Assembly (NCBI RefSeq): GCF_963676485.1
Contig: NZ_OY781114.1
Coordinates: 3,984,501-4,048,500, forward strand
Length of the DNA: 64,000 bases
Source of the DNA: an uncultured Cohaesibacter sp.
GTDB lineage: Bacteria > Pseudomonadota > Alphaproteobacteria > Rhizobiales > Cohaesibacteraceae
Reading direction: 5' to 3'
Below are positions 35,905-51,466 of the stretch, piece by piece. The first letter of the stretch is position 1; each line of letters opens with the position of its first letter. The notes under the pieces are model-generated. The model ran no database searches, was not told where the DNA came from, and saw nothing but the letters and a program-made list of their open reading frames with translations. A program made the translations under genes and the position numbers.

Positions 35905-36270
35905 ATGGAAGAGCTGCTTTTAGACTATCTTCCCATCATTATATTTATTGGCATCTCTCTGATTATCGGTCTTGCCCTGCTTGTATCTCCCTTTATCGTG
36001 GCGTTCAAAAATCCCGATCCGGAAAAGCTTTCAGCCTATGAATGCGGCTTCAATGCCTTTGATGATGCGCGCATGCCATTTGATGTGCGCTTTTATCTGG
36101 TGGCGATTCTTTTCATAATTTTCGATCTGGAAGTGGCTTTTCTCTTTCCGTGGGCGGTGGCATTTGGCGATCTGGGACTGTTCGGTTTCGTATCTATGAT
36201 GATTTTTCTGGCAATTCTGACTGTCGGATTTGTTTATGAATGGAAGAAGGGGGCGCTTGAATGGGACTAG
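35905..36270 (+). CDS. nuoA: NADH-quinone oxidoreductase subunit A
   Basis: A 121-residue membrane subunit of complex I with three transmembrane segments and the conserved [20 protein letters not shown] loop between the first two. First gene of a complete nuo operon. ATG 35905 has GAGAGGA just upstream; an in-frame frame opening at 35836 adds a non-homologous leader. The last bases overlap nuoB by ten. Confidence 0.97.
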
Positions 36271-36842
36271 GCGAAGGAAATCAGACGCTGGTCGCCCAGC
36301 AACCCAAGGGCATTCTTGATCCCAAGACAGGCAAGCCGGTTGGTCATGATGATCCGTTTGTCTCGCAGATGCGCGCAGATCTTTCCGATAAGGGCTTTCT
36401 CGTTACCGCTGCCGATGATTTGATCACCTGGGCGCGGACCGGCTCTCTGATGTGGATGACATTCGGGCTGGCCTGCTGTGCGGTTGAAATGATGCAAATG
36501 TCTATGCCGCGCTATGACTGCGAGCGTTTCGGTTTTGCGCCGCGCGGTTCGCCCCGCCAGTCTGATGTGATGATTGTTGCGGGCACGCTGACCAACAAGA
36601 TGGCTCCGGCCCTGCGCAAGGTCTATGACCAGATGCCGGAACCCCGCTATGTGATATCCATGGGCTCCTGCGCCAATGGCGGGGGCTATTACCACTATTC
36701 CTACAGTGTTGTGAGGGGCTGCGACCGGGTCGTTCCGGTCGATATTTATGTGCCCGGTTGCCCGCCAACGGCAGAGGCTTTGCTGTATGGCGTATTGCTA
36801 TTGCAAAAGAAGATCAGGCGCACCGGATCGATCGAGCGCTGA
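36261..36842 (+). CDS. nuoB: NADH-quinone oxidoreductase subunit B
   Basis: A 193-residue peripheral-arm subunit that binds the terminal cluster N2. Its ligands are in [20 protein letters not shown] and [14 protein letters not shown]. The N-terminal 35 residues are variable and hydrophilic. The start overlaps the end of nuoA, which suggests translational coupling. Confidence 0.97.
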
Positions 36843-36932
36843 TGCCTGCACGAAAGAATTGCTGATCGGCGTCGTGACCAAGGCTGCCGATTCTGAGAAA
36901 AGAGCCGTTTAGGCTTCTATGAGGACGATATA

Positions 36933-37535
36933 ATGGACGAGACATTAAGAGATCTCGGTGACTATATTGAATTGGTATTGGATGGCAAAATCATTGATTG
37001 GAAGATTGCCTTTGGCGAACTGACCGTGAATGCCAAGCGTGCCGATATTACTGAGGTCATCCGGCTTCTGCGCGATGATCCTCGTCTCAAATTCGTCTCC
37101 TTCATAGATCTCACCGCCGTTGATTATCCTCAGAGGCAAGAGCGTTTCGATGTTGTTTATCATCTGCTGAGCCCCAAGCAGAATGCGCGTGTTCGCATCA
37201 AGATCACGACGGATGAAACAAGCTATGTGGATTCTATCTGTGGCGTCTTTCCCGGCGCCAACTGGTTTGAGCGCGAAGCCTATGACATGTATGGCATCCT
37301 GTTTTCCGGGCATCCGGATTTGCGCCGCCTGCTGACCGATTACGGCTTTGATGGGCACCCGCTGCGCAAGGATTTTCCGCTCACTGGATATTATGAAGTG
37401 CATTATGACGATGAGAAGAAACGCGTCGTCTATGAGCCGGTGAAACTTGCACAGGAGTTTCGCAATTTTGATTTTCTCAGTCCTTGGGAGGGCGTGGACT
37501 ATGTCCTTCCCGGAGACGAAAAGGCCGAAGGCTGA
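36933..37535 (+). CDS. nuoC: NADH-quinone oxidoreductase subunit C
   Basis: A 200-residue 30-kDa-type subunit with the signature [20 protein letters not shown] and [20 protein letters not shown], followed by [20 protein letters not shown]. It is separate from NuoD, unlike the fused NuoCD of enterobacteria. It is 90 bases after nuoB. Confidence 0.97.
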
Positions 37536-37564
37536 TATGGGGACTGAGAGGGGATAGACGCGCT

Positions 37565-38755
37565 ATGGCTGAAAAGCAGGTAAGAAATTTCAACATCAAC
37601 TTCGGGCCCCAGCATCCGGCTGCTCACGGCGTTTTGCGCATGGTTCTGGAGCTGAATGGCGAGATTGTCGAACGGGTCGACCCGCATGTGGGCTTGCTGC
37701 ATCGTGGCACCGAAAAGCTGATCGAGCACAAGATCTATTCTCAGGCGACGCCATATTTTGATCGGCTCGATTATGTTGCGCCGATGAATCAGGAACATGC
37801 TTTCTGTATGGCTGTAGAGCGCCTTTTGGAGCTGGAAGTTCCGCGACGTGCCCAGCTGATCCGTGTTCTTTATTGCGAGATCGGGCGCATTCTCAATCAT
37901 ATTCTCAATATCACCACGCAAGCGATGGATGTCGGTGCGCTTACTCCTATTCTTTGGGGCTTTGAAGAGCGCGAAAAGCTGATGGTCTTTTATGAGCGGG
38001 CCAGCGGGTCGCGCATGCATGCCAATTATTTTCGTGTTGGAGGGGTGCGGCAGGATCTGCCGGAGGATCTGATTGACGATATCGAAGCTTTTTGTGATCC
38101 CTTCCTGAAGGTGGTTGACGATATCGATACGATGCTGACCGACAACCGCATTTTCAAGCAGCGCAATGCTGATATCGGCGTTGTGGCGCTGGATGACGCC
38201 TGGGCATGGGGCTTTTCCGGCACCATGGTGCGCTCATGCGGGGTGCCTTGGGATTTGCGCAGAAGTCAGCCTTATGAATGCTACAGCGAAATGGAATTCG
38301 ATATTCCTGTTGGCAAGCATGGGGACAATTATGATCGCTATCTGATGCGCATGGAAGAAATGCGCCAGTCCGTGCGGATCATGCGCCAATGCATCACCAA
38401 GCTGCGCGAACCCGAGGGGCAGGGACCGATTTGCGCCGAGGATGACAAGATCGTGCCGCCAAGGCGCGATGAAATGAAGCGCTCCATGGAAGCGCTCATC
38501 AATCATTTCAAGCTGCATACGGAAGGCTTCCATGTTCCTGCCGGTGAGGTCTATGCCGCCGTTGAAGCGCCCAAGGGCGAGTTTGGCGTGTATCTCGTCT
38601 CTGATGGTACGAACAAGCCATATAAATGCAAGATTCGCGCGCCGGGCTTTGCGCATCTCTCCGCGATGGACTTCTTGTCTCGCGGTTACCAGCTTGCTGA
38701 CGTGTCTGCCATTCTCGGATCGCTTGATCTGGTGTTTGGCGAGGTTGACCGGTAG
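37565..38755 (+). CDS. nuoD: NADH-quinone oxidoreductase subunit D
   Basis: A 396-residue 49-kDa-type subunit that forms the quinone pocket with Nuo[21 protein letters not shown] at the N terminus, [14 protein letters not shown], and [17 protein letters not shown] are present, and the C terminus ends DLVFGEVDR as in the family. The ATG at 37565 was preferred over an in-frame opening at 37484 that would overlap nuoC and add unrelated residues. Confidence 0.97.
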
Positions 38756-38851
38756 GTCATTACAATTCGGGCCACAGTTAGGCCCCTGATTTTAACATCG
38801 GTCTTGCCTCCTGCGCGAGACGGGCCGAACCAGAAACGAGGAACGGCAGAC

Positions 38852-39910
38852 ATGAGTGTCCGTCGCCTGCATAGCGAACAGCCGGAGAGCTTTGAATTCT
38901 CAGCGGAGAATCTCGAATGGGCCCGGAATGTGATTGGTCGATATCCTGAAGGACGGCAGGCATCGGCGGTGATTCCGCTTTTGATGCGTGCGCAGGAGCA
39001 GGAAGGCTGGGTGACCCAGCCAGCGATCGAGTATGTGGCCGATATGCTGTCGATGCCTTATATCCGCGTGTTGGAAGTGGCTACTTTCTATACCCAGTTC
39101 CAGCTGCAACCGGTGGGCAAGAAAGCCCATATACAGGTGTGTGGCACGACGCCTTGCCGTCTGCGTGGTGCAGGGGAGCTGATCCGGGTTTGCAAGAACA
39201 AGATTGCCGCCAAGCCGTTTGCGCTTTCTCAGGATGGTGATTTTTCCTGGGAAGAAGTCGAATGCGCCGGGGCCTGTGTGAATGCCCCCATGATCCAGAT
39301 TTCCAAGGATACCTACGAGGATCTGACGCCTGAGATTTTTGAAGAGCTGATTGACAAGATCGCGACTGGCGAGGCCGTTACTCCGGGGAGCCAAATCGGG
39401 CGACAGGGCTCGGCTCCTGTAGATGGTCCTGTAACGCTTACCGATCCTTCGCTTTATGATGGCTCCCGTGTCAAATGGGGGCTTGGCGCGGAAATCGACG
39501 AGCCAGAAGAAGAAGCCGAAGAGGGTGCTAAGCAAGAAGCGGCGCCAAACAAGACAGGCGATGCCTCCAAGCCGGATAACGGAGCAGATAGCGGCCCAGA
39601 TCGCGGTATGCCGGTGCTTCTGCGTGAACCTCTGGATGGCAAGGCGGACAATCTGAAGGAAATCAGCGGTGTTGGCCCCAAGATCGAGCAAAAGCTCAAC
39701 GGGGTTGGCGTATTCCATTTTGCCCAGATAGCCCAATGGACCGACGAGAATATCGCTTTCATTGATAGTCAGCTTGCTTTCAGGGGGCGGATCGCACGCG
39801 AAAACTGGATAGAGCAGGCAAAGGTGTTGGCCTCCGGTGCTGAAACGGATTTTTCCAAGCGGGTGCAAGCCGGTGCAGTTTCATCCAGTAAGAGCGGAGG
39901 GGATGCATAA
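38852..39910 (+). CDS. nuoE: NADH-quinone oxidoreductase subunit E with C-terminal HhH extension
   Basis: A 352-residue 24-kDa-type subunit. Residues 1-190 are the thioredoxin-like domain with the N1a cluster ligands in [11 protein letters not shown] and [10 protein letters not shown]. Residues about 200-275 are an acidic, low-complexity linker, and about 280-340 form a helix-hairpin-helix-like module ([20 protein letters not shown]). E. coli NuoE is about 166 residues. Long NuoE tails of this kind are known in alphaproteobacteria, but their role is not. ATG 38852 follows GAGGAA. The stop overlaps the nuoF start by one base. Confidence 0.95.
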
Positions 39911-41223
39911 TGGCCGTAATGCTCGAGGATAAGGACCGGATTTTCACCAATATCTACGGCATCCATGATTGGGGGCTGGAAGGCGCTTTGAAGCGCGGCT
40001 CATGGGATGGCACCAAGGGCCTGCTGCAAAAGGGGCGCGAGTGGATCATCAACGAGATGAAGGCATCCGGCCTTCGTGGACGCGGGGGCGCGGGTTTTCC
40101 GACCGGGCTCAAATGGTCTTTCATGCCGCCTAAACAGGAAGGGCGTCCGCAGTATCTGGTTGTCAATGCCGATGAATCCGAACCGGGTACCTGCAAGGAC
40201 CGCGAAATTTTGCGCAATGATCCCCACCATCTGGTGGAGGGATGCTTGGTTGCCGGCTTTGCGATGAATGCGGATGCGGCTTTCATCTATGTGCGCGGCG
40301 AATTCATTCGCGAGCGCGAGCGGCTGCAGGCTGCTGTTGACGAGGCCTATGAGAAGAAGCTCATCGGCAAGAATAACATCCATGGCTATGATTTCGATAT
40401 CATCGTGCATCATGGCGCAGGCGCCTATATATGCGGCGAGGAAACCGCGCTTCTGGAATCGCTGGAAGGCAAGAAAGGGCAACCACGCCTCAAACCGCCA
40501 TTCCCGGCCAATGTGGGCCTTTATGGTTGCCCGACAACCGTCAACAATGTGGAATCCATCGCGGTCGCTCCAACGATCCTCAGGCGTGGTGCGAACTGGT
40601 TCAAGGGCTTTGGTGCCGAGAACAACCATGGCACCAAGCTGTTCTGCGTTTCCGGCCATGTGAACCAACCTGCAACCTTTGAAGAGGCCATGTCGATTCC
40701 CTTCAAGGAGTTGATCGACAAGCATTGCGGTGGCATTCGCGGCGGCTGGGACAATCTGCTGGCGGTGATCCCCGGGGGCTCTTCGGTGCCCTGCGTTCCC
40801 GCAGACCAGATCATGGATTGTCCGATGGATTTCGACAGTCTCAAGGGGCTTGGTTCCGGTTTGGGGACGGCTGCCGTCATCGTGATGGACAAGTCGACCG
40901 ATATCGTCGCTGCGATTGCCCGGATCTCCTATTTCTACAAGCATGAGAGCTGTGGCCAATGCACTCCATGCCGCGAGGGAACTGGCTGGATGTGGCGCGT
41001 GATGGAGCGCATGGCGCGCGGCGAGGCACAGAAGAAAGAAATCGATATGCTGTTTGAGGTTTCCAAGCAGGTGGAAGGTCATACGATCTGCGCTCTTGGG
41101 GATGCTGCAGCCTGGCCGGTACAGGGGCTTATCCGCCACTTCCGACCCGAGATTGAAAAGAGAATTGATCAGTATACGGCCAATCCGAAAGAGGATGCGG
41201 CCCCGCTGGAAGCGGCTGAATAG
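39910..41223 (+). CDS. nuoF: NADH-quinone oxidoreductase subunit F
   Basis: A 437-residue 51-kDa subunit that binds NADH, FMN and cluster N3. The FMN/NADH motif [13 protein letters not shown], the [15 protein letters not shown] segment and the N3 ligands [16 protein letters not shown] are clear. It takes electrons from NADH in the peripheral arm. The start codon shares one base with the nuoE stop. Confidence 0.97.
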
Positions 41224-41257
41224 GGCTACTGAGTTTAACGCAACGGAGACACGTTCG

Positions 41258-43342
41258 ATGGCAAAGCTGGTCGTTGACGGAATTGAGATAGACGTCCCGA
41301 AAGAATATAGCCTGCTGCAAGCTGCAGAGGAGGCCGGGGCCGAGATTCCGCGTTTTTGCTATCATGAGCGTTTGTCGATTGCGGGCAACTGCCGCATGTG
41401 TCTTGTCGAAGTGAAGGGCGGGCCGCCCAAACCCACAGCCTCCTGCGCCATGCGCGTGGGGGATCTGCGCCCCGGGCGCGACGGCGAGCCGCCGGAGATT
41501 TTCACCAAATCGCCGATGGTCAAGAAGGCGCGCGAAGGGGTGATGGAGTTTCTGCTCATCAACCATCCGCTTGATTGTCCGATTTGCGATCAGGGCGGCG
41601 AATGCGATCTGCAGGATCAGGCCATGGCGTTTGGCAAGGGTGGGTCGCGGTTTGACGAGAATAAACGTGCGGTCGAGAATAAATATATCGGGCCTTTGGT
41701 GAAGACCACCATGACCCGTTGCATTCATTGCACCCGCTGCGTGCGTTTCACCACCGAGGTATGTGGTATTCAAGAGCTAGGGCTGATCGGCCGTGGCGAA
41801 GATGCGGAAATCACAACCTATCTGGAAGCCGCGCTCACTTCTGAGCTGCAGGGCAACGTGATCGATCTTTGTCCTGTGGGGGCGCTGACCTCTCGGCCCT
41901 ATGCCTTTACGGCGCGCCCGTGGGAATTGACCAAAACCGAGACCATCGATGTGATGGATGCGGTTGGCAGCAATATCCGCGTTGATACCCGTGGCCGTGA
42001 AGTGATGCGCATCCAGCCGCGTGTCAATGACGCAATCAATGAGGAATGGATTTCCGACAAGACCCGTTTCATTTGGGATGGGCTCAAGGCGCAGCGTTTG
42101 GACAAGCCTTATGTGCGCAAGGATGGCAAGTTGACCCCGGCAAGCTGGGACGAGGCTTTCCGCGCCATCGCTGCCAAATTGAACGGCATGGCTGGTGACA
42201 GGATCGGCGCGATTGCCGGATCCATGGCCAGCGTAGAAGAAATGATGGCGCTCAAGGGCCTGATGACTGCCCTTGGTTCGGGCAACATGGATGCCCGTCA
42301 GGATGGCTCTGTTCTGACGTCTGCCATGGGACGTGCGTCCTATTTGTTCAACGCCACCATCGAGGGCATTGAAGAAGCGGACGCGATTCTGATCATTGGT
42401 TCCAATCCTCGGATGGAAGCTGCTGTGCTCAATGCCCGCATTCGCAAGACGTGGCTGGCCGGGAATACAAGGATTGCTGTAATCGGAGAGCAGGCCGACC
42501 TCAAATATGGCTATGACTATCTGGGCGCTGGCGCTGACATTCTGGCGGATCTTGCTGATGGCAAGGGGACTTTCTTTGACAGCTTGAAGAGCGCAGAAAA
42601 GCCGCTGATCCTCATCGGTCAGGGGGCGATCAATCATGACGATGGTGACGCTGTTCTCGCGCAGGCAGCAAAGCTGGCTGAGGCTTGCGGAGCCCTATCG
42701 GATGAATGGAACGGCTTTTCGGTATTGCACACCGATGCAAGCGCTGTTGGAGCGCTGGAACTGGGCTTTGAGCCACAGGCCGGGGGCAAGGATATTGCCG
42801 CTATGCAATCGGGCGGTGTCGATGCCCTGTTCCTGCTGGGGGCTGATGAGCTGGCTTTTGAGGCCTTTGGGGATGCCTTCAAGATTTATATCGGAAGCCA
42901 CGGGGATGCTGGCGCCCATGCGGCGGATGTCATTTTGCCTGCGGCGACCTATACCGAAAAGTCCGGGCTGTATGTCAATACCGAGGGACGGGTGCAACTG
43001 GCGTTGCGCGCCAATTTCCCTCCCGGAGATGCCAAGGAAGACTGGGCCATTCTGCGGGCGTTATCGGCTGTATTGGGCAGGGCATTGCCATATGACAGCC
43101 TTGATCAGCTGCGCATGCATCTGCTCGATGCCTATCCTCAATTCGAGGTAACAGATGAGTGTCTTGTCGGCGATCCTTCCAGCATCAAGGCGCTGGCAAA
43201 AAAGGCAAACCCGGTCAAAGGGCAGGCATTGATCTCGCCTGTTTCGGACTACTACCTAACCAACCCAATCGCGCGCGCATCGGCTGTCATGGCTGAATGC
43301 AGTGCCTTGGCCAAGAGCAACAAAGCGGAAGCTGCGGAGTGA
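41258..43342 (+). CDS. nuoG: NADH-quinone oxidoreductase subunit G
   Basis: A 694-residue 75-kDa subunit carrying clusters N1b, N4 and N5. Ligand regions are FCYHERLSIAGNCRMC, HPLDCPICDQGGECDLQDQ and CIHCTRCVRF, followed by a molybdopterin-oxidoreductase-like domain (DPx region PASWDEAFRAIAA onward). ATG 41258 follows GGAGA and gives the normal length; an open frame upstream inside nuoF is not homologous. It ends 12 bases before nuoH. Confidence 0.96.
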   Translation: MAKLVVDGIEIDVPKEYSLLQAAEEAGAEIPRFCYHERLSIAGNCRMCLVEVKGGPPKPTASCAMRVGDLRPGRDGEPPEIFTKSPMVKKAREGVMEFLLINHPLDCPICDQGGECDLQDQAMAFGKGGSRFDENKRAVENKYIGPLVKTTMTRCIHCTRCVRFTTEVCGIQELGLIGRGEDAEITTYLEAALTSELQGNVIDLCPVGALTSRPYAFTARPWELTKTETIDVMDAVGSNIRVDTRGREVMRIQPRVNDAINEEWISDKTRFIWDGLKAQRLDKPYVRKDGKLTPASWDEAFRAIAAKLNGMAGDRIGAIAGSMASVEEMMALKGLMTALGSGNMDARQDGSVLTSAMGRASYLFNATIEGIEEADAILIIGSNPRMEAAVLNARIRKTWLAGNTRIAVIGEQADLKYGYDYLGAGADILADLADGKGTFFDSLKSAEKPLILIGQGAINHDDGDAVLAQAAKLAEACGALSDEWNGFSVLHTDASAVGALELGFEPQAGGKDIAAMQSGGVDALFLLGADELAFEAFGDAFKIYIGSHGDAGAHAADVILPAATYTEKSGLYVNTEGRVQLALRANFPPGDAKEDWAILRALSAVLGRALPYDSLDQLRMHLLDAYPQFEVTDECLVGDPSSIKALAKKANPVKGQALISPVSDYYLTNPIARASAVMAECSALAKSNKAEAAE

Positions 43343-43354
43343 GAGGACTGCTAG

Positions 43355-44404
43355 ATGAATGAATTTGTCGCAAACTGGCTGATCCCCGGCGCCATCATGG
43401 TGGGGCAATCCCTTCTGCTATTGGTCGTGCTTCTGGTGGTGATTGCCTATGTTCTGCTTGCCGACCGCAAGATCTGGGCTGCGGTGCAGATGCGGCGCGG
43501 GCCGAATGTTGTCGGGCCTTTCGGTCTGTTGCAGTCGTTTGCTGACCTTTTGAAATTTGTCCTCAAGGAACCGGTTATTCCGTCCGGCTCCAACAAGGTG
43601 ATCTTCTTGCTCGGCCCGCTTGTTACGGTGACCGTGGCGTTGGCTGCGTGGGCTGTGGTGCCGGTGGCTGATGGCTGGGTGATCTCCAACATCAATGTCG
43701 GTATTCTTTATCTGCTGGCTGTTTCCTCGCTCGGTGTCTATGGCATCATCATGGGCGGATGGGCGTCCAACTCGAAATATCCGTTCCTTTCAGCCCTGCG
43801 TTCGGCAGCGCAGATGGTTTCCTACGAGGTTTCCATCGGCTTTGTCATCGTGACGGTGCTGCTGTGCGTTGGCTCGCTCAATCTCACAGACATTGTGATG
43901 GCGCAGCAGAGCGGCCTTGCGACCAAGCTGGGGATGCCTTCCATCAGCTTCCTCAATTGGTACTGGTTGCCCCTGTTCCCGATGTTCATCGTGTTTTTCA
44001 TTTCGGCTCTGGCCGAGACCAATCGCCCGCCGTTTGACCTGGCCGAGGCGGAATCCGAGCTGGTTGCCGGGTTTATGGTTGAATATGGCTCGACCCCTTA
44101 CATGATGTATATGCTGGGAGAATATGTCTCCATCGCGCTGATGTGTTCGATGACGACGATCCTGTTCATGGGGGGGTGGTTGCCGCCGCTTGATATTGTT
44201 CCCTTTACCTGGGTGCCCGGTGTTGTCTGGTTCATTCTCAAATCCAGTCTGGTCTTTTTCATGTTTGCCATGGTGAAGGCCTTTGTTCCCCGCTATCGCT
44301 ATGACCAGTTGATGCGTCTTGGCTGGAAGGTATTCCTGCCGATCTCTCTCTTCTATGTGGTGCTGGTGGCCGGTGTTTTGCAATTTGCCGGATGGGCACC
44401 TTGA
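43355..44404 (+). CDS. nuoH: NADH-quinone oxidoreductase subunit H
   Basis: A 349-residue, eight-helix membrane subunit that joins the peripheral and membrane arms and helps form the quinone channel. [21 protein letters not shown] and the acidic loop [27 protein letters not shown] are diagnostic. The next gene downstream is an unassigned small membrane protein rather than nuoI. Confidence 0.97.
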
Positions 44405-44431
44405 GGGTCGGGCGGGCAAAAAGGGGCAGGT

Positions 44432-44677
44432 ATGTTTGATTTGTCGTTGCCCGGCATGGTCGGGGCCCTGATTGGTGGGGTGATCGGCTGGGCCGATTTC
44501 AAGATGATTGGCGGTCTTGTTGGAGCCAAATGGATGAAGTCCCGTTCGGAAAGGGGTCTTGGCAACCATCCGAACACAAAAAGATATGGCGACTGGATTC
44601 AATTCGGAATCTGGTGTGGCACCCAGCTTCTGTTTCCCGTGATCGGCTATTGGGCCGGCGCGTCGCTGGCAGGATAA
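44432..44677 (+). CDS. Small membrane protein inside the nuo operon (81 aa), unassigned
   Basis: An 81-residue protein with two hydrophobic segments (about 8-30, Gly-rich [13 protein letters not shown]; about 56-78, [19 protein letters not shown]) joined by a basic loop with [19 protein letters not shown]. An AAGGGG ribosome site precedes the ATG. It begins 27 bases after nuoH, and its stop overlaps an ATG at 44677 of the next frame. It matches none of the 14 standard subunits or the accessory subunits I know. Unassigned reading frames inside nuo operons are recorded in Rhodobacter and Paracoccus. A complex I assembly or accessory factor is possible. Confidence 0.72.
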
Positions 44678-44694
44678 TGGTGATAGGAGAGCAA

Positions 44695-44955
44695 ATGGAA
44701 CAGGCAGGTTTGATTGCTGGCAGTCTTGGGGCCTTCGTCGGATTGGCGATTGCTCTGATGGCCAATATTTTCGTTTTGCCTGCTGTTCTCAAGGCACAGG
44801 AAGACGGCTTTATTCTGGGGCGCAAGACAGCTCTTGGCACCATGAGCCAGGAGAGCGTGGCCCGGTTTACCCGCTTCATGTATCGCGTTCCTATGCCGCT
44901 GATGTTTGCTTTTGTTGGCTTTTTGGCCGGTTTGAAGGCGTTTGGAGGTTATTGA
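44695..44955 (+). CDS. Second small membrane protein inside the nuo operon (86 aa), unassigned
   Basis: An 86-residue protein with one hydrophobic helix at about 5-31 ([24 protein letters not shown]), a hydrophilic middle ([22 protein letters not shown]) and a second helix at about 66-84. ATG 44695 has GGAGA five bases upstream; ATG 44677 would add six residues and overlap the preceding stop. Its own stop overlaps the nuoI start (TGATG), which shows tight coupling to complex I genes. No family is recognised; it looks like a partner of the preceding 81-residue protein. Confidence 0.72.
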
Positions 44956-45443
44956 TGGCACTAGAACAGGCTGCTAAATCGCTGATGCTGAAGGAGTTTG
45001 TTTCGGCCTTCTTTCTGTCGATGCGCTATTTCTTTGCGCCCAAATCGACAGTGAACTATCCGTTCGAGAAGGGGCCGGTCTCTCCGCGCTTTCGCGGTGA
45101 ACATGCCCTGCGGCGCTATCCAAACGGGGAAGAGCGCTGCATTGCTTGCAAATTGTGTGAAGCCATTTGCCCGGCGCAGGCGATCACCATCGAGGCGGGG
45201 CCGCGCGGCAATGACGGAACGCGCCGGACGACCCGCTATGACATCGACATGACCAAATGCATCTATTGCGGCTATTGTCAGGAGGCATGCCCGGTCGAGG
45301 CCATCGTCGAGGGACCGAATTTTGAATTTGCAGCCGAAACGCGCGAGGAGCTTTTCTATAACAAGGAGAAGCTGCTTGAGAATGGCGCGCGCTGGGAGCA
45401 GGAACTGGCTCAGAATATCGCATTGGATGCGCCCTACCGCTAA
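44955..45443 (+). CDS. nuoI: NADH-quinone oxidoreductase subunit I
   Basis: A 162-residue ferredoxin-type subunit with two 4Fe-4S motifs, [16 protein letters not shown] and [16 protein letters not shown], that carry clusters N6a and N6b to N2. The [17 protein letters not shown] segment precedes them. The ATG at 44955 overlaps the stop of the small membrane-protein gene before it. Confidence 0.97.
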
Positions 45444-45506
45444 GGCGGTATGGAAAGGATTTCAAGGAGAGATGCCTCCCGCAAGGGATGCAGGAAAGCA
45501 AAAGAC

Positions 45507-46121
45507 ATGATTCTTCAGAGCGTCTTCTTTTATCTGTTTTCAGCGGTGCTGCTGGTTTCGGCGCTGATGGTGATCGGTGCGCGCAATCCGGTGCATTCGG
45601 TGCTGTTTCTGATCCTGGCTTTTTTCAACGCTGCGGCGCTGTTTGTGCTGCTAGGGGCCGAGTTTCTGGCGATGCTGCTGGTGGTGGTCTATGTGGGTGC
45701 GGTCGCGGTGTTGTTCCTGTTTATCGTGATGATGCTTGATGTCGATTTTGTCGAGTTGCGGGCGGGTTTTCTGACCTATATGCCCATGGGGCTTGTCGTG
45801 GGTGTCGTGCTGTTGGCCGAGCTGCTGATTGCGCTGGGGGGCTGGGCTTTGAGCCCGGATCTGGTGGCGCATCTGGGTGAGCCTATGCCGGACTTGGCGC
45901 AGACTTCCAACATCGAAGCCATCGGAGCGTTGCTCTATACCAAATATGTTTTCTATTTCCAGACGGCGGCGCTGATCCTGTTTGTTGCGATGATCGGGGC
46001 TATCGTCTTGACTTTGCATCACCGTCGGGATGTGCAGCGCCAGAATATCGAGCGGCAGGTCGCGCGCAATGCCGAGAATTCAATCGAGATTGTTAAAGTG
46101 GAACCGGGCAGCGGCATCTAA
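45507..46121 (+). CDS. nuoJ: NADH-quinone oxidoreductase subunit J
   Basis: A 204-residue subunit with five hydrophobic helices, including [27 protein letters not shown] typical of NuoJ helix 3 with its pi-bulge region. The start is ATG 45507; a frame open from 45450 is rich in Arg/Lys and not homologous. It is part of the proton-translocating membrane arm. Confidence 0.95.
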
Positions 46122-46201
46122 CCGCGCCGACATGCAGACACCGCTTATATGAATTGCCCGCCACTCAATGCGGGCGGGACCAAGAAGGGACAGACAGAGA
46201 G

Positions 46202-46510
46202 ATGGAAATCGGGCTTAGCCATTATCTGACCGTTGCAGCGATCCTGTTCGTGATCGGGATGTTCGGTATTTTCATCAACCGGAAGAATGTCATCGTCATT
46301 CTTATGTCGATCGAGCTGATCCTCTTGGCGGTCAATATCAACTTTGTTGCCTTTTCCTCCTATCTGGGAGATCTGGCGGGGCAGATATTCGCACTGCTCA
46401 TTCTCACTGTCGCGGCCGCTGAGGCGGCAATAGGGTTGGCCATTCTGGTCGTATTTTATCGCAATCGCGGCTCCATCGCGGTTGAAGACATCAATATGAT
46501 GAAAGGCTGA
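46202..46510 (+). CDS. nuoK: NADH-quinone oxidoreductase subunit K
   Basis: A 102-residue, three-helix membrane subunit with the conserved glutamates in [14 protein letters not shown] and [17 protein letters not shown] 46202 follows a purine-rich stretch (AGGGACAGACAGAGAG). Normal length for the family. Confidence 0.97.
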
Positions 46511-46518
46511 GAGAGAAC

Positions 46519-48474
46519 ATGTATTCGGCCATTGTCTTCCTGCCGCTGATTGGCTTTTTGATTGCGGGTCTGTTTGGGCGTTCGCTCGGGCACAAGGCAT
46601 CGGAAATCATAACCAGCACCCTGTTGGTCATCGCTGCATTCCTATCCTGGGTAGCCTTTCTGTCCGTGGGGATCGGACATGGTGAAAGCCAGACAGTCAA
46701 TATCCTGACTTGGCTCAGCTCTGGCGATCTGGAGATCAACTGGTCCATCCGCGTGGATACATTGACCGTCGTGATGCTGGTGGTGGTCAATACGATTTCG
46801 GCGCTCGTGCATATCTATTCCATCGGCTACATGCATGCCGATCCGCATAGATCACGGTTTTTTGCCTATCTGTCGCTTTTCACCTTCGCGATGCTGTCGC
46901 TGGTTACTGCCGATAATTTGCTGCAAATGTTCTTTGGCTGGGAAGGTGTGGGACTGGCGTCCTATCTTCTGATCGGCTTCTGGTATCAGAAACCCTCTGC
47001 CAATGCTGCGGCGATGAAGGCCTTTATCGTCAACCGTGTGGGCGATTTCGGCTTCCTTCTGGGGCTATGCGGCATTTATGTGCTGTTTGACAGTGTAAGC
47101 TTTGACACCATATTCGCCAATGCTCCGGCGATGCAGGAGAAAACCATCCATTTCCTCGGGCAGGACTTCAATGCGCTGACGACGATTTGCCTACTGCTCT
47201 TCATGGGCGCCATGGGCAAGTCGGCGCAGTTCCTGTTGCATACATGGTTGCCAGACGCGATGGAGGGGCCCACGCCCGTTTCCGCCCTCATCCACGCCGC
47301 CACCATGGTCACGGCGGGCGTTTTCATGGTTGCCCGTCTGTCGCCGCTGTTCGAGCTTTCGCCAACCGCGCTTGAAGTGGTGACGTTTATCGGGGCCACA
47401 ACTGCCTTCTTTGCCGCGACCGTTGGTCTGGTGCAGAACGATATCAAACGGGTCATTGCCTATTCAACATGCTCGCAGCTTGGCTACATGTTCGTTGCGC
47501 TGGGGATTGGCGCTTATGGTGCTGCCATTTTCCATCTCTTTACCCATGCCTTCTTCAAGGCTCTGTTGTTCCTTGGGGCAGGGTCTGTGATCCATGCTGT
47601 TTCCGATGAACAGGATATGCGGCGGATGGGCGGTTTGCGCAAGCATATCAAGCTGACCTATCTGATGATGCTGGTCGGCACCTTCGCGCTGACGGGCGTG
47701 GGCATTCCTGGCACCATTCTCGGCTTTGCCGGTTTCAATTCCAAGGATGCCATCATCGAATCCGCCTATGCGGCGCAAAATGGCATGGCCAATTACGCCT
47801 TTGCGATGACGGTGATTGCTGCGCTCTTTACCAGCTTCTATAGCTGGCGGCTGATTTTCCTGACCTTCCATGGCAGGGAGCGCCTGAGCGCCGATGTGAA
47901 AGCGCATATTCATGAAAGCCCGCCCGTGATGATCATACCGCTCATGGTTCTGGCTCTCGGGGCCGTGCTGACAGGCATGGTGTTTGCCGGATATTTCTAT
48001 GGCCATCACTATGAAGAGTTCTGGAAGGGCGCTCTGTTCACGGGACCGGAAAATCATGTCATGCATGAGGCTCATGAGGTGCCAATGACAGTCAAGCTTG
48101 CTCCATTCGTCATGATGGTGGCCGGTTTTCTTGTCGCCTTTTTCTTCTATATTCTCTCGCCGAGCACACCCAAGAAGCTCGCCGAACAGCATAACTGGCT
48201 CTACAAATTCCTGCTCAACAAATGGTATTTCGACGAGCTCTATGACTTCCTCTTCATTCGGGGCGCCAAGGGGCTTGGCTCGCTGCTCTGGAAGGGCGTG
48301 GATGAAGGCGTGATTGATCGCTTCGGGCCGAATGGAATTGCTGCGCGGGTTCTTGCGCTAACCAGCCGGATCAATCGATTGCAGACCGGTTACGTCTATC
48401 ACTATGCCTTTGCCATGATGATTGGTGTGGCGATCCTGATTACCTATTCCATGCTAAGCGGGGGAGCGCACTGA
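46519..48474 (+). CDS. nuoL: NADH-quinone oxidoreductase subunit L
   Basis: A 651-residue antiporter-like subunit with about 16 helices and the long lateral helix at the C terminus. The antiporter-family motif [38 protein letters not shown] contains the helix-break lysine region, and [16 protein letters not shown] is family-typical. The stop overlaps the nuoM start. Confidence 0.97.
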
Positions 48475-49985
48475 TGAGCGATTGGCCATTACTTTCCACG
48501 GTCGTTTTCCTGCCACTGGTCGGGGCGATGATGATCCTGCTGGTTAAGGGTGATACGGCTATCGCCCGACGCAATATCACCAATGTTGCGCTTTGGACCA
48601 CAGTGGTGACATTCCTTATTTCACTGCTGATCCTGAGCCAGTTTGATGCCTCTGATGCCGGCTTCCAGATGCAGGAGACCGCCGATTGGCTCGGCGCCTC
48701 CATCTCCTATCGCATGGGGGTCGATGGCATCTCCATCCTGTTTGTGATTCTGACAACGGCGTTGATGCCTGCGGCCATTTATGCCAGCCGCAATTCTATC
48801 CAGAAGCGGGTGAAGGAATATATGATTGCCTTCCTTGTTCTGGAAACCATGATGATCGGCGTGTTTTGTGCGCTGGACTTGGTACTGTTCTATCTGTTCT
48901 TTGAAGCGGGCCTTATTCCGATGTTTCTCATCATCGGCATCTGGGGCGGGCAGAACAGGGTTTATGCCAGCTTCAAATTCTTCCTTTACACGTTGGCAGG
49001 CTCGGTTTTGATGCTGCTGGCGGTTATGGCCATGTATTGGGATGCGGGCACAACGGACATCGTGGCGCTGCTTGCCCATCCATTCTCGCCGCAGATGCAG
49101 ACGTGGCTTTGGCTGGCTTTCTTTGCGTCCTTTGCTGTCAAAATGCCCATGTGGCCGGTTCACACCTGGTTGCCGGATGCCCATGTTCAAGCGCCAACGG
49201 CCGGATCGGTCATTCTGGCCGGTGTGTTGTTGAAGATGGGGGGCTATGGGTTCCTGCGTTTCTCATTGCCCATGTTCCCGATCGCTTCGGATATGTTTGC
49301 GCCTCTGGTCTATACACTTTCGGTGATCGCGATCATCTACACCTCGCTGGTGGCGCTGGCCCAACAGGATATCAAGAAGCTGATCGCCTACTCGTCGGTT
49401 GCGCATATGGGCTATGTGACCATGGGTGTTTTCTCCATGACGCAGCAGGGCGTGCAGGGCGGTATCTTCCAGATGATCTCGCACGGTATCGTCTCCGGCG
49501 CATTGTTCCTGTGTGTTGGTGTTGTCTATGACCGGATGCATACCCGCGAAATTTCGGCTTATGGCGGTCTGGTCAACAGGATGCCGGTGTTTGCGACGTT
49601 GTTCATGATTTTCACCATGGCCAATGTCGGCTTGCCCGGAACATCCGGTTTCATTGGTGAATTCCTCACCATCATCGGCGTATTTCAGGTCAATACATGG
49701 GTTGCCCTGTTTGCAGCGACAGGGGTTATCCTGTCGGCCTCCTATGCTTTGTGGCTATATCGTCGGATCATTTTTGGCAAGCTGGAGAAGGAAAGCCTCA
49801 AGGGTATCCTTGATATGGATCTTCGCGAGAAAACCATATTGGTGCCGCTTGCCGTGTTGACCATCTTCTTCGGCTTTTATCCTGCACCCATTCAGAATGT
49901 GACGGCTGTGGCTGTCGAAAATCTGATCAACAATTATCAGGCAGCCCTCAGCGCTGCGGACAAGCTGGCGCTGCTTGCTCAATAG
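48474..49985 (+). CDS. nuoM: NADH-quinone oxidoreductase subunit M
   Basis: A 503-residue antiporter-like subunit. It has [38 protein letters not shown] with the conserved Lys/Trp/His-rich turn, and [17 protein letters not shown]. About 14 helices. Its first base is the last base of the nuoL stop. Confidence 0.97.
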
Positions 49986-50020
49986 AGCGCGGTGTGAGCG
50001 AAACATGAAGTGAGTGAAAG

Positions 50021-51466
50021 ATGACCACTGAGTTGGCTACGCTTCCCAATCTTATGCCCGCTTTGCCGGAGATCCTGCTGGCTGTCGGCGCCATGGTGTT
50101 GTTGATGCTTGGTGCGTTTGGCGGTTCGAAAACCTCTCAGGTGGTCAATGGCCTTGCTGTTGCCGTGCTGATTATCGCTGGTGCAATCTTGTTGTTAGCG
50201 TCGAGCGGAACTGTGAGCACTTTCAATGATGCCTTCATTCAGGATCCTTTTGCCCGCTTGATGAAACTTCTGGTGCTGATCGGATCTGGATTTTCGCTGG
50301 CTATGTCCGTGGGCTATACGCAGGCAGAGAAGTTTGACCGGTTTGAATATCCGGTACTTGTTCTGCTGGCGACAGTGGGCATGATGCTGATGCTCTCGGC
50401 CAATGACATGATCGCCGTCTATCTTGGGCTTGAGTTGCAGTCGCTGACCCTTTACGTGCTTTCTTCTTTCAAGCGCGATAGCGCCAAGGCAACGGAAGCG
50501 GGGCTTAAATATTTCGTTTTGGGCGCTTTGTCGTCGGGCATGCTGCTCTATGGCATGAGCCTTGTTTATGGCTTTACCGGCCAGACCTCTTTCGTCGGTA
50601 TTGCCGAAGCGGTTCATGTGGATGGCGCTGGCATCGGGGTCATCTTCGGTCTGGTCTTCATTCTGGCTGGTTTGACCTTCAAGATTTCTGCCGTGCCGTT
50701 CCATATGTGGACACCCGATGTCTATGAAGGCGCTCCCACGCCCGTAACCGCCTTTTTGGCGGCGGCACCGAAGGTTGCAGCCATGGGGCTCATCGTGCGC
50801 GTTGTCATGACGGCCTTTGATCCAATGGACCTGCAGTGGCAGCAGGTCATCACCTTTGTTTCCATCCTGTCCATGGTGCTGGGCGCGTTTGCCGCCATTG
50901 GCCAGCGCAATATCAAGCGGCTGATGGCTTATTCCTCGATCAGCCATATGGGCTATGCTCTGGTCGGGCTTGCTGCGGGCAGTTCGGCAGGTGTGGTGGG
51001 CGTTATCGTCTATCTGACCACCTATCTTGCCATGACGCTGGGTACTTTTGCTGCCATCATGTCCATGCGCCGCCGCGACGGTATGGTCGAACGTATCGAT
51101 GATCTGGCAGGGCTCTCGCGCAATGATCTGCCCATGGCTGTGCTGCTCGGGATCTTGATGTTCTCGCTGGCCGGTGTCCCCTGGATGGGGGGATTTATCG
51201 GGAAGTGGTTTGTCTTTTCTGCCGCAATCGAGGCGGGGCTTTATCCGCTTGCTATCATTGGGGTGTTGGCGTCTGTGGTGGGGGCGTTCTATTATTTGCG
51301 CATCGTCAAGATCATGTTTTTTGATGATCCGGCCCCGGTGTTCGAACGGCCATCCAACGAGTTGCGCATTGTGCTGGCAATAAGCGGACTTTTCATGGCA
51401 TCGATGGTGTTCTATGTCAGTCCGATCCGCTCCATCGCTGAATTTGCGGCAAACAGCTTCTTCTGA
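50021..51466 (+). CDS. nuoN: NADH-quinone oxidoreductase subunit N
   Basis: A 481-residue antiporter-like subunit that ends the operon. [20 protein letters not shown] and [20 protein letters not shown] are diagnostic, and [15 protein letters not shown] matches the family. A strong terminator follows 75 bases after the stop. Confidence 0.97.

Follow-up and report, generated by a model that had tools for sequence, protein, structure and literature searches.

Two small genes, here called P1 and P2, lie between nuoH and nuoI in the nuo operon of the window (the whole stretch of 64,000 nucleotides that was analysed). Both are genuine genes under purifying selection. On profile comparison P2 is a divergent paralogue of P1, and the two belong to one family that is apparently undescribed, as far as Pfam, NCBIfam, the PDB and the open-access literature go. 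We propose that the two paralogues are accessory membrane subunits of complex I, specific to this lineage and placed where NuoH meets NuoI, an assignment from sequence and gene context to which we would give an even chance.

Gene layout and selection

The operon runs on the + strand from nuoA to nuoN (35908-51466), as delimited by NCBIfam and gene order. NCBIfam models match NuoA to NuoK and NuoN, nuoA at scores under the model cut-offs, and from their place we take nuoL to be 46519-48474 and nuoM to be 48474-49985. On the same strand, nuoH (43355-44404; 349 aa) is followed by P1 (44432-44677; 81 aa, ATG start, 28 bases from the nuoH stop), P2 (44695-44955; 86 aa, ATG start, 18 bases past the last base of P1) and nuoI (44955-45443), the 3' neighbour of P2. 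The sequence-only reading had described two ORFs at these positions, with good ribosome sites and with the second overlapping the nuoI start, and all of this holds. Purine-rich GGGGCAGG (44423-44430, + strand) stands just 5' of P1 and AGGAGAG (44685-44691, + strand) 5' of the P2 start at 44695; the P2 TGA (44953-44955) and the nuoI ATG at 44955 overlap by one base. An in-frame ATG for P2 also occurs at 44677, and 44695 was preferred because it aligns with the starts in relatives, themselves picked by us. In several loci the hairpin start and the nuoH stop overlap by four bases. The other intergenic gaps of the window's operon are below about 100 bases, sizes that depend on the start codons we chose, and promoter- and terminator-like patterns in the region show no excess over shuffled sequences (1 vs 1.3 and 5 vs 4.5).

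Median dN/dS is 0.075 for P1 (18 genomes of the window's genus) and 0.209 for P2 (13 genomes), with nuoH at 0.056 and nuoI at 0.038 in the same genus, all from within-genus pairs with dS of 0.05-1.5. The same alignments shifted by one base, which served as frame+1 controls, give 1.76 for P1, 0.95 for P2, 1.63 for nuoH and 2.83 for nuoI, and chance ORFs are thereby ruled out. Within the genus the constraint on P1 nearly equals that on nuoH, and the P2 sequence changes fast.

Neither protein matches Pfam or NCBIfam at the curated cut-offs; scans of Pfam, NCBIfam and the PDB return only noise below threshold, such as FtsX, which P1 matches at 13.3 bits where 25.5 are required. For 20 diverse members of the P1 family, Pfam gives unrelated models only (E from 0.0016 up), and Pfam and NCBIfam together give a best E of 0.0014, each unrelated model appearing in one to three of the 20. 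No PDB chain falls below E 0.7 in the profile searches. The NCBIfam equivalogs of the core subunits NuoA, NuoJ and NuoK match neither protein, and nuoA, nuoJ and nuoK are present at other places in the operon. The two proteins are thus as unassigned as they were first said to be, and at the sequence level Pfam, NCBIfam and the PDB offer no described accessory subunit as a homologue. Older papers on the Paracoccus and Rhodobacter nuo clusters are said to mention unidentified frames. Our searches of the open-access literature (PMC) turned up no description of a protein at the nuoH-nuoI place; a 2025 survey of accessory subunits, according to its available text, worked with models of mitochondrial subunits (PMC12361115).

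A family of two-helix hairpins

Two membrane helices had been predicted for each protein from the sequence alone. They are clear in P2 (about residues 8-32 and 65-83; 19-residue hydropathy peaks of 2.42 and 1.70), which carries the motif VLPxVLxxQ ... TxFxYRxxMP. They are weaker in P1 (about residues 7-27 and 59-79, with a basic loop between; peaks of 1.54 and 1.09, the second weak), where they appear only under a milder definition of two 17-residue segments of at least 1.2. In an alignment of 15 sequences the invariant residues of P1 are G11, G15, D22, F68 and G72, and in a wider one of 20 sequences they are G11, G15 and G72 only.

The family consists of fast-evolving hairpins of about 63-95 aa. 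Sequence features were counted in 90 unique hairpins, many of them closely related, that come from 77 distinct carriers. A G-x3-G in the first helix is found in 69 of the 90 (shuffled mean 25), an acidic followed by an aromatic residue near the end of that helix in 49 (shuffled 6.7), an FP-type turn in the second half in 49 (shuffled 7.4) and a G-x-x-x-G/A type end in 86 (shuffled 32). Nine of the 90, including several P2-type copies, score below 10 bits with A3, our wider profile, when their starts are trimmed. The loop holds more K/R than both tails combined in 99/99 unique two-helix ORFs, a set that was taken without a homology screen and whose starts were trimmed by a script in a way that may favour this result. 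By the positive-inside rule, the loop would be cytoplasmic and both ends periplasmic.

The relationship between P1 and P2 emerges from profile comparison. With hhalign, P1 and P2 align over nearly their full length (89%, E 2.4e-6; one comparison), and the wider profile A3 gives 93% and E 3.2e-7 (one comparison). Because hydrophobic proteins give false scores, 500 shuffled versions of each sequence also served as controls, with residues permuted only inside a helix or a loop so that the segments were preserved. Against A3, all nine P2 sequences outscore all 500 shuffles of themselves. Single scores below about 25 bits were not relied on alone, since shuffled family members reached 21 bits with the P1 profile A1.

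For some copies the link between P1 and P2 appears weak. A whole-genome search with A1 lists P2 in five of the 13 P2-bearing genomes (E 1.4e-4 to 0.14) and fails to list it in the other eight, the window's own among them; in the latter genome a 493-aa frame contains an unrelated site that scores E 0.09. With A1, one of the nine P2 copies is matched by 2/500 of its shuffles, L150 by 22/500 and L302B by 376/500; with A3, L150 is matched by 1/500 and L302B by 67/500. The P2 profile does identify both L150 and L302B, and with it 0/500 shuffles match them.

A single-sequence search finds P2 in 13 of 61 genomes, all of the window's genus, which would make it an unrelated genus-specific gene. We rejected this reading on the strength of the hhalign comparisons, the shuffle controls and the P2-type ORFs that occur at the same place elsewhere (L150, L285, L286, L287 and L302/L303). 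In Mesorhizobium sp. Root102 a P2-type ORF (29% identity) stands alone in the spacer. In G207 (family f35) the order is reversed, P2-type then P1-type, as it is in G185 and G158 of the same family, where the P2-type member is recognised through the P2 profile only. The pair therefore exists in either gene order, and P1-type and P2-type members are also found singly. L286 and L287 (family f24) carry a 69-aa P2-type form; that of L286 beats all its shuffles with both the P1 and the P2 profile, and the form may be close to the ancestor that the P1 and P2 types share, or may be a reduced copy. The hairpins that were first taken for two independent proteins are, by hhalign and the shuffle controls, better described as paralogues of one family.

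A different tandem was seen in L149 (Alphaproteobacteria MAG Vin_25), where hairpins at positions 1942-2475 of that locus resemble different branches of the family; this pairing is distinct from the P1-P2 type.

Distribution and history

The window's order is called Hyphomicrobiales here, the order to which the named carriers belong. A single-sequence search with P1 matches 24 of 61 near genomes: 18/18 of the genus, 1/2 of the other members of the family and 5/41 others of the order. In 24/24 of these loci nuoH and nuoI flank the match or its ORF. Across an even sample of 249 genomes of the order, profile A1 matches at least 72, a lower bound because at most 22 candidates were scored per genome. 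Sixty-eight of the 72 matches sit just upstream of nuoI (51 by coordinates, 5 + 12 in fetched loci), and nuoH is on the other side in all 50 loci inspected (30 + 20) out of these 68. The four remaining matches are weak (E 0.002-0.006). One of them, in G243, lies 558 bases before nuoI, a distance that would fit a GFA gene standing behind the hairpin there, as in its relative L120.

Genomes of the order without a profile match offered at least 95 nuoI places, of which 92 were extractable and 60 spacers were fetched. Most of the 60 are empty stretches of less than 60 bases; a short two-helix ORF occurs in nine, and three contain a GFA-type gene only. One two-helix ORF, the 98-aa frame of L117 (family f7), is unrelated to P1 and P2 by the shuffle test and was not counted as family, and L069 is borderline, 2/500 of its shuffles matching it with A3. 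The nuoH-nuoI spacer of L117 is 331 bases long, and its ORF is possibly an independent replacement at the same place. GFA-type genes lie between nuoH and nuoI in L083, L086 and L105 (family f18) and behind a P1-like hairpin in L113 and L120 (family f29); Pfam identifies them as GFA in L120 and L086, and in L083, L105 and L113 they are so called by similar sequence only.

Other orders of the Alphaproteobacteria yielded no two-helix ORF in 60 spacers fetched from among the matches listed (one per family, one family twice). Fifty-nine of these spacers measure 127 bases or less; the other spans 484 bases and contains a 163-aa ORF that is unrelated. Profile searches of 337 genomes of the class and 299 of the phylum, limited to 16 and 19 scored candidates per genome, gave 8 + 2 matches from outside the order, all of them weak (E 2e-4 to 0.009) and located in frames 151-733 aa long. 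Two further matches within the order from the phylum search, L310 and L311, are again between nuoH and nuoI.

Among named loci, the best 80 of 591 found with a NuoI query include 12 with a family member in the spacer and 68 with none. The 12 carriers are two Beijerinckiaceae MAGs (L140, L141), Chenggangzhangella methanolivorans, Ancylobacter moscoviensis, Labrenzia sp. OB1, Mesorhizobium sp. Root102, Fulvimarina pelagi, Aurantimonas marina, a Notoacmeibacter MAG, a Hyphomicrobiales MAG (L209), a Proteobacteria MAG (L166) and L149, an alphaproteobacterial MAG whose two copies differ. None of the named loci in the NuoH tree from Rhizobiaceae (0/8), Nitrobacteraceae (0/6), Methylobacteriaceae (0/4) or Bartonellaceae (0/2) carries a hairpin. 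The only Paracoccus locus among the best 80 of 591, that of P. marcusii, has an empty spacer of 9 bases. The sequence-only reading had held that this place is empty in most nuo operons, and the 60 spacers from outside the order and the 68 named loci bear it out. Of the profile matches, 68 of 72 fall at this one junction, and the distribution in the order is patchy. The family is spread over the order more widely than the same reading had supposed, and its presence changes often.

On a FastTree phylogeny of 245 distinct NuoH rows with 77 carriers, hairpin presence changes at least 27 times, and with 61 clear outsiders to the order removed there are 29 changes in 184 rows. Any locus whose spacer has a two-helix ORF counts as a carrier in this tree, with homology checked for only some of these ORFs; the tree is rough and the sample is enriched for carriers. 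Fifty-four loci were left out as duplicates or for having too little NuoH, among them loci with long spacers and no hairpin (L083, L086, L105 and L272). Across the 245 rows the nuoH-nuoI spacer measures 198-567 bases in carriers and has a median of 19 and a maximum of 282 bases in non-carriers. Frames of 422-432 aa had suggested a fusion of NuoH and P1, and this was rejected when their sequences showed nuoH and the hairpin as separate genes. No NuoH residue was found to track presence among 276 features in 12 independent pairs on supported branches, a comparison of low power in which the best feature differs one way in about 4.1 of the 12 pairs (net difference 3.8). The family would have originated near the ancestor of the order and then undergone losses, a history drawn from counts that do not separate gain from loss.

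Possible roles at the NuoH/NuoI junction

A subunit, an assembly factor and a role connected with membrane potential were all suggested at the outset. For real, unassigned genes that lie in the nuo operon and hardly elsewhere, a role related to complex I is the best reading; the simplest is that the family acts with NuoH and NuoI, given how faithfully it keeps to a single junction. We favour a subunit over an assembly factor, two readings that the data do not separate, and association with the complex is a prediction. Each protein would cross the membrane twice as a helical hairpin, with its two termini outside and the short basic loop on the cytoplasmic side. The hairpins, whose translation falls between those of NuoH and NuoI, would lie against the face of NuoH that meets the lipid, at the "heel", where the basic loop would come near the membrane-lying N-terminal helix of NuoI, and would stabilise the junction of the quinone module and the membrane arm, a part also ascribed to the unrelated mitochondrial NDUFA1, NDUFA3 and NDUFA13.

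Subunits at the heel are proposed because small membrane subunits of mitochondrial complex I occupy the same ND1/NDUFS8 junction, where, in the available part of the source, NDUFA3 and NDUFA13 sandwich the N-terminal helix of NDUFS8 (PMC8762328). Like NDUFA1, NDUFA3 and NDUFA13, P1 and P2 are small, belong to one lineage and are assigned to the ND1(NuoH)/NDUFS8(NuoI) junction, in their case from gene order only; unlike them, NDUFA1 is described as having one transmembrane helix (PMC8762328). Pfam and PDB scans give no sequence match of P1 or P2 to NDUFA1, NDUFA3 or NDUFA13. NDUFA3 and NDUFA13 have one transmembrane helix each.

The complex I of Paracoccus denitrificans is reported to have the extra subunits NDUFS4, NDUFS6, NDUFA12 and PIMT, which, as we propose for P1 and P2, belong to an alphaproteobacterial enzyme but, as the accessible account has it, bind the hydrophilic domain and the heel and are not two-helix membrane hairpins (PMC11522691). 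The P1/P2 family matches none of these four in Pfam or NCBIfam. The solved Paracoccus enzyme has no P1/P2-like subunit, which is no test of the proposal because the spacer of P. marcusii is empty.

Short membrane proteins in the operons of other respiratory enzymes are also close parallels. CydX, CydY and CydZ are likewise patchy and of more than one type; by the description consulted, CydX differs in having 37 aa and in tracking a feature of the catalytic subunit (the Q-loop) (PMC4325964), whereas the low-powered comparison here found no link to NuoH. As with CydX, we find a small membrane protein in the operon, under purifying selection and, in 68 of 72 matches, at one junction. The short COX4-type membrane proteins of bacterial COX operons are described as highly variable, placed among core genes and elusive to BLAST (PMC4013037); they belong to another enzyme, and no COX4 model matches in our Pfam scans. 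P1 and P2 would represent a new family within a known class, the small operon-encoded membrane proteins of respiratory enzymes, with a function read from context.

The frequent changes in presence imply that the enzyme works without the family, and they would also suit an assembly helper or a passenger. Dedicated factors for the assembly or insertion of NuoH and of a NuoH-NuoI subassembly, leaving before the complex matures, are the main rival explanation, possible but less likely. A gene order between nuoH and nuoI with closely spaced or overlapping frames fits such factors at least as well as it fits subunits, as do the fast change of P2 and the repeated changes in presence; the nearly nuoH-like constraint on P1 within the genus (0.075 vs 0.056) speaks against them, and the excess of G-x3-G first helices (69/90 vs 25) suggests a stable helix-helix contact, with a partner that the motif leaves unspecified. 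Still less probable is a small membrane protein that functions on its own, perhaps as a homo- or hetero-oligomer with an effect on membrane potential or lipids, and owes its place in the nuo operon to co-expression only. Glycine-rich hairpins can self-associate, and the GFA-family genes inserted here in some families mean that the site tolerates passengers, but such a protein would be expected elsewhere in some genomes and 68 of 72 matches sit at one junction. That the spacer was left by an operon rearrangement and holds chance open frames is a negligible prospect: many relatives without a gene there mark it as dispensable, but the selection test (0.075 and 0.209 against 1.76 and 0.95) refutes it, and in a sample of 36 families of the order, enriched for carriers, 19 have a two-helix ORF there.

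Bacterial complex I is usually taken to consist of 14 core subunits and a few soluble extras. If P1 and P2 are subunits, part of a well-studied order has membrane accessory subunits that are missing from curated family libraries, and their carriers sit beside close relatives without them, which makes the role testable by deletion and exchange. More tentatively, and with less confidence than in the subunit assignment itself, we suggest that the order independently added rapidly diversifying transmembrane accessory subunits at the heel of the quinone site, with repeated duplication into pairs of paralogues and repeated loss. If true, the mitochondrial gain of NDUFA1, NDUFA3 and NDUFA13 would have a living counterpart, not related by sequence, in bacteria whose every step could be deleted and measured. 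Surveys of the type of PMC12361115, described there as grouping nuo genes by a 250-bp gap, would probably split many carrier operons, given their spacers of 198-567 bases.

A separate observation concerns nuoE of the window (38852-39910), whose product extends about 180 residues beyond its thioredoxin-like domain (residues 25-170). An NCBIfam L21-type model aligns by its end to residues 222-329, scoring 88.7 bits against a cut-off of 281. A NuoE model of 400 residues partly covers the window's NuoE, so long forms are known.
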